From: Brevundimonas sp. LM2
GTDB taxonomy: Bacteria; Pseudomonadota; Alphaproteobacteria; Caulobacterales; Caulobacteraceae
Direction: 5' to 3'
DNA length: 64,000 nt
NCBI RefSeq assembly: GCF_002002865.1
Contig: NZ_CP019508.1
Span: forward strand, 682,001-746,000
Position numbers and translations under genes: made by a program. Position 1 is the stretch's first letter, and every line of letters begins with the position of its first letter. Below, in pieces: positions 446 through 64,000 of this stretch. The notes beneath the pieces were generated by a model that searched no databases, had not been told where the DNA came from, and saw nothing but the letters and a program-made list of their open reading frames with translations.

Positions 446-1504
446 ATGAACGCCCACGTCACGATCAAGCCCGCCCCCGGCCTGCAACGGCCCGGCCTGC
501 TGACCCCCTCGGCGGCCTACAAGCCGTTCCGCTATCCGTGGGCGTTCGACATGTGGAAGACCCAGCAGCAGGTCCACTGGATGCCGGAAGAGGTGCCGCT
601 GGGCGAGGACTGCAAGGACTGGGCGGCGAACCTGAACGACAAGGAGCGCAACCTGCTGACGCAGATCTTCCGTTTCTTCACCCAGTCGGACATCGAGGTC
701 GCCGACAACTACATGGAAAAATACGGCCGGGTGTTCAAACCGACCGAGGTGAAGATGATGCTCTCATCCTTCGCCAACATGGAGACCATCCACATCGCGG
801 CCTATGCCCTGCTGCTGGAAACCATCGGCATGCCCGAGAGCGAGTTCGGGGCCTTCATGGAATACGAGGCCATGCGGGACAAGCACAACTACATGGGCCA
901 GTTCGGGGTGGACACCGACGCCGACATCGCCCGGACCCTGGCCATGTTCGGTGGCTTCACCGAGGGGCTGCAGCTGTTCGCAAGTTTCGCGATGCTGATG
1001 AATTTCCCGCGCCAGAACAAGATGAAGGGTATGGGCCAGATCGTCAGCTGGTCGGTGCGCGACGAGAGCCTGCACTGCGACGGCATCATCAAACTGTACC
1101 ATGCCTTCAACAAGGAGACGGGCTGCGTCACGCCGTCGGTGGCTGATGACATCGTCGAATGCTGCCGCACCGTGGTGGGTCTGGAAGACAAGTTCATCGA
1201 CCTGGCCTTCGAGGCCGGCGAGGTGAACGGCATGACGCCCGAGGACATCAAGCAATACATCCGCTTCATCGCCGACTGGCGTCTGCGCCAGCTGAAGCTG
1301 CCCGAACTGTACGGCATCAGGGAAAACCCCCTGCCGTGGCTGCAGTCGCTGCTGTCGGGCGTCGAACACGCCAACTTCTTCGAGGCCCGCGCCACCGAAT
1401 ACTCCAAGGCCGCCACCACCGGCGCCTGGCAGGGCCCGGACGGCGTCTGGGGCGAGTTCGACAAGATGATGGCCCGCCGCGACATGAGCATGGTCGCGGG
1501 CTGA
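446..1504 (+). CDS. nrdB: Ribonucleoside-diphosphate reductase subunit beta (class Ia)
   Basis: 352 aa, normal length for an R2 protein. R2 houses the di-iron centre and tyrosyl radical that start reduction of ribonucleoside diphosphates by the alpha subunit in the cytosol. All metal ligands can be placed with E. coli R2 spacing: D82, E113, H116, E173, E207 and H210. The radical tyrosine is Y120, in the NMETIHIAAY segment. ATG 446 follows a 175-bp leader containing a possible NrdR box. The alpha subunit is not next to it in this window. A DUF559 gene with inverted repeats lies just downstream, and the left repeat can fold into a hairpin that may end the transcript. Confidence 0.96.
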   Translation: MNAHVTIKPAPGLQRPGLLTPSAAYKPFRYPWAFDMWKTQQQVHWMPEEVPLGEDCKDWAANLNDKERNLLTQIFRFFTQSDIEVADNYMEKYGRVFKPTEVKMMLSSFANMETIHIAAYALLLETIGMPESEFGAFMEYEAMRDKHNYMGQFGVDTDADIARTLAMFGGFTEGLQLFASFAMLMNFPRQNKMKGMGQIVSWSVRDESLHCDGIIKLYHAFNKETGCVTPSVADDIVECCRTVVGLEDKFIDLAFEAGEVNGMTPEDIKQYIRFIADWRLRQLKLPELYGIRENPLPWLQSLLSGVEHANFFEARATEYSKAATTGAWQGPDGVWGEFDKMMARRDMSMVAG

Positions 1505-1513
1505 GTTTGAGCC

Positions 1514-1590
1514 TCTCCTCCCCGTCGCGTAGCGATGGGGAGGTGGCGCGGCGCGCTTGCGCCGTGACGGAGGGGGCGACCGGGTGTCGG
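1514..1590. repeat. Left copy of 80-bp REP-like inverted repeat
   Basis: This 77-bp block is an inverted copy of 1958-2037. Shared blocks include CTCCTCCCCGT, ATGGGGAGGTGGCGCGG and GTGACGGAGGGGGCGACCGG. Each copy contains its own hairpin (CCTCCCC / GGGGAGG). The pair encloses the DUF559 gene like terminal inverted repeats. No short target duplication was recognised outside the arms. Confidence 0.85.
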
Positions 1591-1604
1591 AAGCAGGCCC
1601 CTCA

Positions 1605-1964
1605 TCACCCCCGCAACCTCGCCTCCGCCTCCCGCCATATGAACTCCAGCACCCCATCCAACTCGTCCTTCACCGCCCGGGCGGTAATTCGAATGACGCG
1701 GATCGCCCTGCCGCCCAGCCAGACCGTTCGTCTTTCGTCGTGGGCGGCCCGCTCGTCGGTCGCGTGCGACGCCCCGTCCACCTCCACGGCCAGCTTCGCC
1801 GCCGCGCAGTAGAAGTCGAGGATATAGGGTCCGATCGGATGCTGTTTGCGAAAGCCCAGGCCCCCCAGTCTGTTGCCCTTGAGGCGGATCCACAGCCTGG
1901 CCTCGGGCGGGGTGAGCCTGCGCCTGAAACTGCGCGCGCGTTCGTAGCTTTTCCCGTCCGCCAC
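1605..1964 (-). CDS. DUF559 domain (Vsr/PD-(D/E)XK-fold) protein
   Basis: 119 aa, all DUF559. The family belongs to the very-short-patch-repair endonuclease superfamily; its biological function is not established. Candidate catalytic residues are D50 in the ILDFYC strand, E61-x-D63 in AVEVDG, and H67. The start is GTG 1964, which lies inside the right repeat arm, so the first codons are repeat-encoded. The stop lies about 15 bp before the left arm. The reading frame therefore fills the space between the arms almost exactly, which suggests that gene and repeats move or amplify together. A related domain is fused to RecQ at 62.1-62.5 kb; by eye the two are about 45% identical. Confidence 0.85.
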   Translation of the reverse strand: MADGKSYERARSFRRRLTPPEARLWIRLKGNRLGGLGFRKQHPIGPYILDFYCAAAKLAVEVDGASHATDERAAHDERRTVWLGGRAIRVIRITARAVKDELDGVLEFIWREAEARLRG

Positions 1965-2037
1965 CCGGTCGCCCCCTCCGTCACGGCCCTGAAGGAGGGC
2001 CGCGCCACCTCCCCATTCCTTCGGAACGGGGAGGAGA
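1958..2037. repeat. Right copy of 80-bp REP-like inverted repeat
   Basis: Reverse complement of 1514-1590 with a few mismatches, concentrated in the loop of the CCTCCCC/GGGGAGG hairpin. It contains the GTG start codon of the DUF559 gene (1962-1964) and ends 44 bp before the start of the next gene, so it may also shape that gene's leader. Confidence 0.85.
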
Positions 2038-2080
2038 AGCTTAACATTTGTTCCGAGTTTGTTCCAGGGGACTCCCTGAC

Positions 2081-3097
2081 ATGACCAACGTCGCCCTCGT
2101 CGGCTTCGGCTTCGCCGGCCAGACCTTCCATGCGCCGCTGATCGCGGCCTGCGCCGATCTGAGGCTGCACACGGTGGTGACCTCGCAGCCTCAGCGGCTC
2201 GCCGACGCCTGGCCCGAGGCCCGGGCCGTGCCCGACCTCGAGACCGCGCTCGCCGATCCGGCGATTGATCTCGTCGTCCTCGCCACCCCCGATCCCCTCC
2301 ACGCCGCCCAGGCCGAACAGGCGCTGAACGCGGGCAAGGCGGTGGTGGTCGACAAGCCCTTCGCCCTGACCCTGGCCGACGCCCGTCGCGTCGTCGATCT
2401 GGCGACGGACAAGGGCCTGCTGCTGTCGGTGTTCCACAACCGCCGCTGGGACGCAGACTTCCTCGCCGTCCAGGCCGAGATCGCCTCGGGGCGGCTGGGT
2501 CGGGTCGTGACGTTCGAAAGCCGGTTCGACCGTTTCCGCCCCCAGGTCCGCGACCGCTGGCGCGAGGCCGAGGGGGCCGGGGTCTGGTTCGACCTGGGGC
2601 CGCATTTGATCGACCAGGCCCTGATCCTGTTCGGCCGGCCGCTGGGCGTCACCCTTGATCTGGCCATTCAGCGCGACGGCGGCCGCAGCCCCGACTGGGC
2701 CCATGCCGTGCTGCGCTATGAGGACGTCCGCGTGGTCCTCAACGCGGCCATGACGGTCGCGGCCTCCGACGTCCGGTTCGCGGTCCACGGGACCCGAGCC
2801 AGCCTGATGTCTTCGGGCCTCGACCCGCAGGAGGACCAGCTGAAGGCCGGGATGCCGGTCGGCGCGCCCGGCTGGGGCGTCGATCCCTCGCCCTTGATCC
2901 GGGTCGAGGGCGACACCGGAGCCCGCATCGCCCTCGACGGCCCGGCCGGCGACTATCCAGCCTTCTATGCCGGCATCGCGGCGGCCCTGCGCGGCGAGGG
3001 GCCCAATCCGGTCCCGCCCGAACAGGCCCTGACCGTGATGGAGGTGATCGAGGCGGGTTTGGCCAGCGCGGCCCAGCGCCGCGAATTCCTGCTCTGA
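2081..3097 (+). CDS. Gfo/Idh/MocA-family oxidoreductase
   Basis: 338 aa from ATG 2081, preceded by the purine-rich CAGGGGA; an upstream in-frame ATG at 2048 lies before the conserved Rossmann start and is less likely. The N-terminus is a dinucleotide-binding fold (VALVGFGFAGQTFHAPL). The family's DKPFALT motif, with its catalytic lysine, sits near residue 95, followed by the alpha/beta substrate domain with an HNRRWD motif. It resembles YdgJ/YhhX-type NAD(P)-dependent sugar or inositol-like dehydrogenases; the substrate cannot be told from sequence. The DUF559/repeat unit is just upstream, and a SnoaL-type gene converges from downstream. Confidence 0.9.
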   Translation: MTNVALVGFGFAGQTFHAPLIAACADLRLHTVVTSQPQRLADAWPEARAVPDLETALADPAIDLVVLATPDPLHAAQAEQALNAGKAVVVDKPFALTLADARRVVDLATDKGLLLSVFHNRRWDADFLAVQAEIASGRLGRVVTFESRFDRFRPQVRDRWREAEGAGVWFDLGPHLIDQALILFGRPLGVTLDLAIQRDGGRSPDWAHAVLRYEDVRVVLNAAMTVAASDVRFAVHGTRASLMSSGLDPQEDQLKAGMPVGAPGWGVDPSPLIRVEGDTGARIALDGPAGDYPAFYAGIAAALRGEGPNPVPPEQALTVMEVIEAGLASAAQRREFLL

Positions 3098-61894: not shown

Positions 61895-61898
61895 AATA

Positions 61899-62072
61899 GC
61901 CCTTCCCCCATTCTTCATGGGGGAAAGCCGTCCGTCGTCGAGCGGAGCGAGACCAGGACGGATGGGGGAACTTGATCTTCCTTTCGCCAAGCCAAGCAAG
62001 ACTTCCCCCATCGGTCCTGGATCGCTGCGCGATCGACGGACCGCTTTCCCCCGCGAAGGGCGGGGGAAGGGC
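61899..62072. repeat. REP-like inverted repeat pair abutting the recQ-DUF559 stop
   Basis: Arms of about 70 bp: 61899-61970 and 62003-62072, inverted. Shared blocks: GCCCTTCCCCC, GGGGGAAAGC, GTCCGTCG and GATGGGGGAA. Each arm has its own CCCCC/GGGGG hairpin. It occupies nearly all of the space between two convergent genes. The right edge ends at the base before the recQ-DUF559 TAA (62073-62075). Confidence 0.85.

Positions 62073-64000
<1,928 letters not shown>

Follow-up and report, generated by a model that had tools for sequence, protein, structure and literature searches.

DUF559 nuclease genes framed by inverted hairpin arms as candidate mobile elements in Brevundimonas sp. LM2 and other bacteria

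The window analysed here is a stretch of 64,000 nucleotides from Brevundimonas sp. LM2 (C1:682001-746000 of the single 3,564,519-bp contig of this genome, G000). Between nrdB and a gene for a GFO/IDH/MocA-type oxidoreductase (mocA-type) it carries a gene for a DUF559 nuclease bordered by inverted arms. The locus is probably one member of a widespread mobile-element family in which DUF559 is the sole gene between inverted two-hairpin arms (R-DUF559-R'). Comparison with other genomes strongly indicates that the R-DUF559-R' unit is a mobile cassette, and the nuclease likely drives its mobility. On the best reading it is a mobile element with a single nuclease, operating in the manner of the REP-associated tyrosine transposases (RAYTs) and their doublets of repetitive extragenic palindromes (REPs), the REPINs, but with an enzyme of the EDxHD/Vsr fold.

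Each arm consists of a hairpin P1 (CCTCCCC..GGGGAGG), a TGGC linker, a second hairpin P2 and a gene-proximal GACGGAGGGG. Aligned as a whole, the arms form an 86/88-bp inverted pair of 83% identity, which includes a block of 46 nt that is 85% complementary (1507-1552/1999-2044) and one of 31 nt that is 97% complementary (1561-1591/1957-1987). The inverted-repeat score of the locus is 101; a score of 50 is not reached by any of 1000 intervals of 310 bp taken at random from the window (they overlap and so are not independent). Both hairpins are predicted in each arm by DNA folding, and the single-stranded fold of either arm beats 200 of 200 shuffles (z -4.9 for the left arm, -2.8 for the right). 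A sequence-only reading of this DNA had described a DUF559 gene between inverted repeats, with a GTG start inside one repeat, a stop about 15 bp from the other and a hairpin in each. This description holds closely: the start codon lies within the right arm, the stop codon is 12-13 bases off the left arm, and there are two hairpins per arm.

Alleles at two sites and cassettes in unrelated surroundings

The site between nrdB and the mocA-type gene (site 1) was searched in 131 genomes of the genus with the two flanks joined as query, and 128 matched at E <=1e-60. In 10 of these (G022, G053, G115, G102, G093, G072, G023, G055, G078 and G001) the alignment runs unbroken over the junction without an insert. 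The flanks lie apart in nine genomes, G000 included, and a single flank exceeds the cut in the other 109. Fifteen junctions were read, comprising the 10 empty ones and those of G096, G121, G110, G069 and G038; the inserts of G090 and G061 are unread. The full cassette is present in two genomes, G000 and G096, the orthologous cassette of the latter having the ends GACTCTCCTCCCC..GGGGAGGAGAGTG. G121 has a terminal hairpin alone, together with a right flank that matches that of G000. Pairs without a gene, belonging to a different repeat family, occupy the site in G110 and G069, and arms of that same family surround a run of N in G038. No such repeat is visible by eye in the insert of G058.

The second site (site 2, locus L082) gave a match in all 131 genomes; 24 of 30 loci were taken, 21 of them with both flanks. 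Eight genomes (G094, G048, G056, G066, G127, G068, G035 and G076) lack the element and show, by eye, a terminator-like hairpin. The full cassette occurs in five (G039, G126, G028, G086 and G002, the last with an additional gene alongside) and a single terminal hairpin in two (G019 and G128, the latter also with an additional gene). G074 carries a pair from another family that lacks a gene, and the sequence is unrelated in G070, G020, G009, G088 and G011. Among the site 2 alleles (L314-L340), the four full ones that were read whole have no terminator-like hairpin, and the element may take the place of such hairpins or use them as targets. At both sites the cassette lies directly past a stop codon. 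The three solo hairpins from the two sites would fit an element that has collapsed to its end. By this comparison the element is a discrete cassette that is present or absent at orthologous sites.

Related cassettes also occur in unrelated surroundings. In three pairs of loci, L087/L186, L085/L088 and L199/L093, the two loci of a pair lying in different species, the proteins are 83, 85 and 81% identical and the cassettes (390-455 bp) have 74-81% DNA identity; beyond the cassette there is no match of at least 180 bp within ~6 kb on either side. At one common site, by contrast, where the flanks of L185/L211 and of L194 are 91-95% identical, the DUF559 proteins are only 49-50% identical and lie in opposite orientation. 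The proposal of a candidate mobile cassette in the sequence-only reading thus gains support from the allelic series and from the unrelated surroundings, and the empty-site alleles to which it had looked exist at both sites.

Pairing of nuclease and repeat families

A search of 61 genomes of the genus gave 222 DUF559 matches (mean 3.6 per genome), of which the best 76 were taken and 71 tested; L073, L079, L080, L189 and L216 were left out as incomplete. An inverted-repeat score of at least 50 was obtained for 53 of the 71 loci, three of the six in G000 among the genes that reach it, as against 0/1000 random intervals and 0/27 mocA-type genes, so that the enrichment near DUF559 looked for in the sequence-only reading is present. 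The orientation script labelled 44 arm pairs inward and 9 outward, two of the labels (L205 and L209) being wrong and the arms actually inward. Among named organisms, whose phylum grouping is our own and was taken from record titles, the score is at least 50 at 25/36 alphaproteobacterial, 8/27 Firmicutes and 2/12 other loci (5 of 80 dropped as short or incomplete), and at 0/139 shifted intervals. Across the Alphaproteobacteria, DUF559 is found in 80 of 241 genomes; 28 loci were scored (2 of 30 dropped as short or incomplete), with 7 at 50 or above and 13 at 40 or above, while the 56 controls include none at 50 and have a maximum of 28. This recurrence of gene and repeats in distant bacteria suggests a nuclease-based type of mobile element that has so far escaped notice. 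No link between DUF559 and repeats was found among titles and beginnings of abstracts in open-licence PMC or in PMC3733652 (in part), a scope outside which subscription papers and most preprints fall.

The arms are also dispersed as inverted pairs without a gene (R-R'), which are presumably non-autonomous. Family A of G000 has eight short gene-less pairs and one wider pair, compared with two DUF559 loci (read); the scoring of inverted pairs covered 40 of 52 candidates. The pattern GGGGAGGTGGCN{3,30}TGACGGAGGGG is present in 51 of the 61 genus genomes and its reversed control in none. It is missing from 4/4 genomes without DUF559 and from 6/57 with it (Fisher p 4e-4, uncorrected for kinship; the completeness of two of the four without DUF559 is only 70 and 85%). 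In Clostridia, a version of the motif, GGAAGGTGGCN{3,30}TGACGGATGAGG, has 12 copies in 4 of 8 genomes and a control count of 0. Protein identity and arm similarity vary together, with a Mantel r of 0.57 over 1301 pairs without flank similarity from 53 loci (maximum of 2000 permutations, 0.19) and of 0.43 among pairs below 60% protein identity. In 15 arms of the related CCTTCTCCC family, P2 shows 19 double-changed cells as against 6.0 +- 1.8 after shuffling (0/500 as high; slid controls <=3), although some of these arms come from orthologous sites, so the cells are not independent events.

The nuclease gene is under purifying selection (dN/dS, the ratio of non-synonymous to synonymous rates, is 0.14 against L277). 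In 38 DUF559 sequences D50, D63, H67 and D76 are invariant, and E21 and E61 are at least 90% conserved; the invariance of the DFYCAAAK block is partly due to the way the loci were selected, as this block was among the patterns used to find them. The conserved acidic and histidine residues are presumably catalytic. The fold of the protein resembles those of 3hrl, I-Bth0305I and Vsr, which places it with the EDxHD/Vsr-like catalytic folds.

A parallel case is provided by GIY-YIG genes, which are framed by inverted repeats at 19 of 24 loci in the genus (L217-L246; 6 of 30 dropped as short or incomplete). Their palindrome, TCCGCTCATCCCCGCG..CGCGGGGACCCAG, is uniform and differs from the DUF559 type. 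Using motif expressions that were composed after the sequences had been inspected, the DUF559-type linker motif is found near 41/71 DUF559 genes and 0/24 GIY-YIG genes, and the palindrome TCATCCCSGC..GCSGGGAC near 18/24 GIY-YIG genes and 0/71 DUF559 genes. The parallel hints at nuclease-palindrome pairing as a general principle. GIY-YIG and EDxHD are both families of homing endonucleases according to the available part of PMC3943268, and the framing of both by palindromes here fits a cut-and-repair view of the element.

Known systems, mechanism and competing explanations

Several known systems share features with the cassette. The likeness to RAYT/TnpA_REP REPtrons and REPINs, as far as the available parts of PMC3116915 and PMC8266576 describe them, includes a lone nuclease gene that lies close to palindromes or has them on both sides (for DUF559, at the 53 of 71 loci above), palindromes dispersed as inverted doublets without a gene (the pairs of G000) and co-divergence of enzyme and palindrome. 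However, the RAYT enzyme is a HUH Y1 transposase, each RAYT is described there as single-copy, and in the present case the cassette with the gene itself varies in presence and has two-hairpin arms. The comparison with RAYT made in the sequence-only reading is therefore apt for the arrangement and fails for the enzyme, there being no Y1_Tnp match in G000. The EDxHD homing endonuclease I-Bth0305I (PDB 3r3p; PMC3943268, in part) shares the catalytic fold with its conserved acidic and histidine residues. In contrast, the DUF559 locus shows no intron or intein, the gene is bordered by hairpin arms, and, being only 119 aa long, the protein has no extended DNA-binding region. Nor does each element have a single cognate insertion site, since cassettes whose proteins are 81-85% identical occur in unrelated surroundings and a genome holds many DUF559 sites. 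The Vsr fold is shared with Vsr and Caulobacter VsrA, but DUF559 here is framed by repeats and mobile, and its cassette has no methyltransferase gene (compared with the available part of PMC12907096). Terminal inverted repeats and short gene-less forms are found as in miniature inverted-repeat transposable elements (MITEs) and insertion sequences (IS), but the sole gene is no known transposase and a target-site duplication is not definable. NGO0050 of Neisseria gonorrhoeae (PDB 3hrl) resembles the DUF559 protein in fold.

In the proposed mechanism DUF559 would recognise the hairpin arms and would cut either the folded single-stranded ends of the element or an acceptor site (for example an R unit or the hairpin of a terminator); host repair would then copy the element in by homing-like cut-and-repair. 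Nucleases of the Vsr/EDxHD fold hydrolyse DNA and are not known to join strands, which is why this route is favoured. On balance, the choice of a homing-like over a transposase-like mechanism is evenly poised.

Several observations weigh against a mobile cassette driven by DUF559. Mobility is deduced here from the comparison of sequences. No target-site duplication is definable, the intergenic flanks being too diverged at both sites, and the terminator-like hairpin of the site 2 alleles without the element is missing, rather than split, in the full alleles. The four loci with the most similar cassettes (L069, L070, L074 and L075; ~590 bp, 93-96% identity) and differing immediate neighbours were rejected as proof of movement between sites, because their 6-kb flanks show a single hypervariable segment; its conserved outer flanks indicate local turnover rather than transfer between sites. 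L184/L091 likewise lie in one segment, and no transfer between sites is shown by them. Scores below 50 are found at 18/71 genus loci, at 21/28 class-wide loci and at 3/6 DUF559 genes of G000, where hairpin repeats are seen by eye only. A wide arm pair in G000 (3558123/3558462) surrounds part of a frame that is not DUF559. DUF559 copy number is no significant predictor of R copy number (Spearman rho 0.22, p 0.09), and a proportionality between the two was rejected accordingly. Finally, gene and arms could co-diverge simply as linked passengers.

Some of these points would suit a passenger role for DUF559, with the repeats moved by host recombination, replication slippage or an unrecognised transposase, or with the gene merely surviving between repeats. 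The reliance on comparison, the weak relation of gene and repeat copy numbers, and the count in family A, eight short pairs lacking a gene against two DUF559 loci, all favour it. Such a role is nevertheless unlikely given that mocA-type genes are never framed by repeats (0/27) and GIY-YIG genes never carry the DUF559-type motif (0/24), that gene and arms co-diverge, that the gene is under purifying selection, that a similar gene-repeat pairing occurs in Firmicutes, and that the pattern is absent from all four genomes lacking DUF559. An origin of the repeats as ordinary REPINs or bacterial interspersed mosaic elements (BIMEs) moved by RAYT (TnpA_REP, Y1 HUH), with DUF559 incidental, is highly improbable. 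The inverted doublets dispersed between genes do resemble REPINs (PMC3116915, in part), but Y1_Tnp (PF01797) has no match in G000 and is found in 1/61 genus genomes, whereas the same search was positive in 5/14 control genomes. This explanation was rejected on that basis, and is contradicted within the genus unless the search missed a highly divergent HUH enzyme.

Two further explanations assign the cassette a host or defence role. The arms might serve a stable, ancestral and immobile DUF559 repair gene of the VsrA kind as terminators or stability hairpins, to which the position directly past a stop codon at both sites, the absence of the terminator-like hairpin from the full site 2 alleles read whole and the host phenotype of the DUF559 protein VsrA in Caulobacter (PMC12907096, in part) would correspond. 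This is very unlikely in view of the empty alleles at two sites, the unrelated surroundings and the dispersed gene-less pairs; the allelic series contradicts it. A selfish addiction or defence cassette, in which DUF559 would cut DNA lacking the element or a modification while the hairpins protect or regulate, could draw on the DNA damage response that requires VsrA in Caulobacter without the methyltransferase ScmA (same source, in part). It is improbable, as the cassette has no second gene, and a defence system was rejected on the PADLOC matches, which are weak and partial (DpdF E 0.0023, homing endonuclease E 0.0084).

Features of the window and significance

Table 1. Features of the cassette, its neighbours and the second DUF559 domain (window positions)
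Feature	Position	Strand	Remarks
nrdB, left neighbour	446..1504	+	PF00268; cassette directly past nrdB stop
Left arm R	1507..1592	+	order P1, linker TGGC, P2, GACGGAGGGG; core 1515-1575; inverted partner 1957-2044
Hairpin P1, left arm (CCTCCCC..GGGGAGG)	1517..1543	+	DNA fold
Hairpin P2, left arm	1547..1566	+	DNA fold; corresponding helix covaries in related CCTTCTCCC arm family (15 arms)
DUF559 nuclease gene	1605..1964	-	119 aa, GTG start; PF04480 E 1.8e-27
Right arm R'	1957..2044	-	core 1973-2036; inverted partner of left arm
GFO/IDH/MocA-type oxidoreductase (mocA-type), right neighbour	2081..3097	+	
Inverted hairpin pair, other family	61898..62073	.	adjoins stop codon of helicase-DUF559 fusion
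Second DUF559 of window	62073..62402	-	in-frame fusion to C-terminus of RecQ-type helicase

The second DUF559 of the window belongs to a RecQ-type helicase with Helicase_C, RQC and HRDC domains; the fusion and the adjoining hairpin pair (together 61898-63998) look like a cassette captured in frame. As for the arms themselves, known structured RNA was rejected, no Rfam family reaching the gathering score and two weak matches falling below it. A GTTC-N7-GTTC box is present at 2050-2064, past the right arm and ahead of the mocA-type gene, similar boxes are readable at the equivalent place in G096 and G121, and another is found directly upstream of the DUF559 start at L072 (1450-1500, G060). This box is the LexA consensus according to PMC12907096 (in part). 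SOS control of the cassette was rejected, with LexA boxes near 4/71 DUF559 genes and in 3/142 shifted windows, showing no enrichment.

Other loci show the cassette and its repeats in further states. At G032:C5:13988-14419 two inverted copies of the R pattern surround a DUF559 match that is split between two frames and looks like a decayed cassette. At one shared place a gene-less pair (G000, C1:83.5 kb) corresponds to the DUF559 locus L072 of G060, with several repeats in both, so the comparison is not clean. Between conserved flanks in G020, G033, G008, G011 and G035 (L351-L355), a hypervariable stretch a few kb long contains several copies of the repeat as well as DUF559 cassettes, and their neighbours differ. 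At L014 (~1478-2040; G000 C1:3558100-3558660) family-A repeats lie within an open minus-strand frame of 778 codons, between similar segments that resemble lipoyl domains; here the repeats may be tolerated within a protein.

To our knowledge, the origin of palindromic repeats in genomes without RAYT is open. Two widespread nuclease families, one of which still bears the name of a domain of unknown function, here follow a distinct palindrome family each, and thus provide a directly testable candidate for the enzyme. If that candidate is right, many DUF559 genes would gain a function, the turnover of intergenic hairpins would become easier to explain, and a minimal one-gene system would be available for studying the spread of DNA by a hydrolytic nuclease. 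A broader proposal, which could go either way, is that small hydrolytic nucleases of the homing type make up a class of minimal mobile elements, each nuclease having a structured palindrome family of its own (DUF559/EDxHD in Alphaproteobacteria and Firmicutes; in parallel, GIY-YIG in this one genus). Such elements would generate and maintain many of the dispersed palindromes in RAYT-less bacteria through hairpin recognition and copying by host repair.
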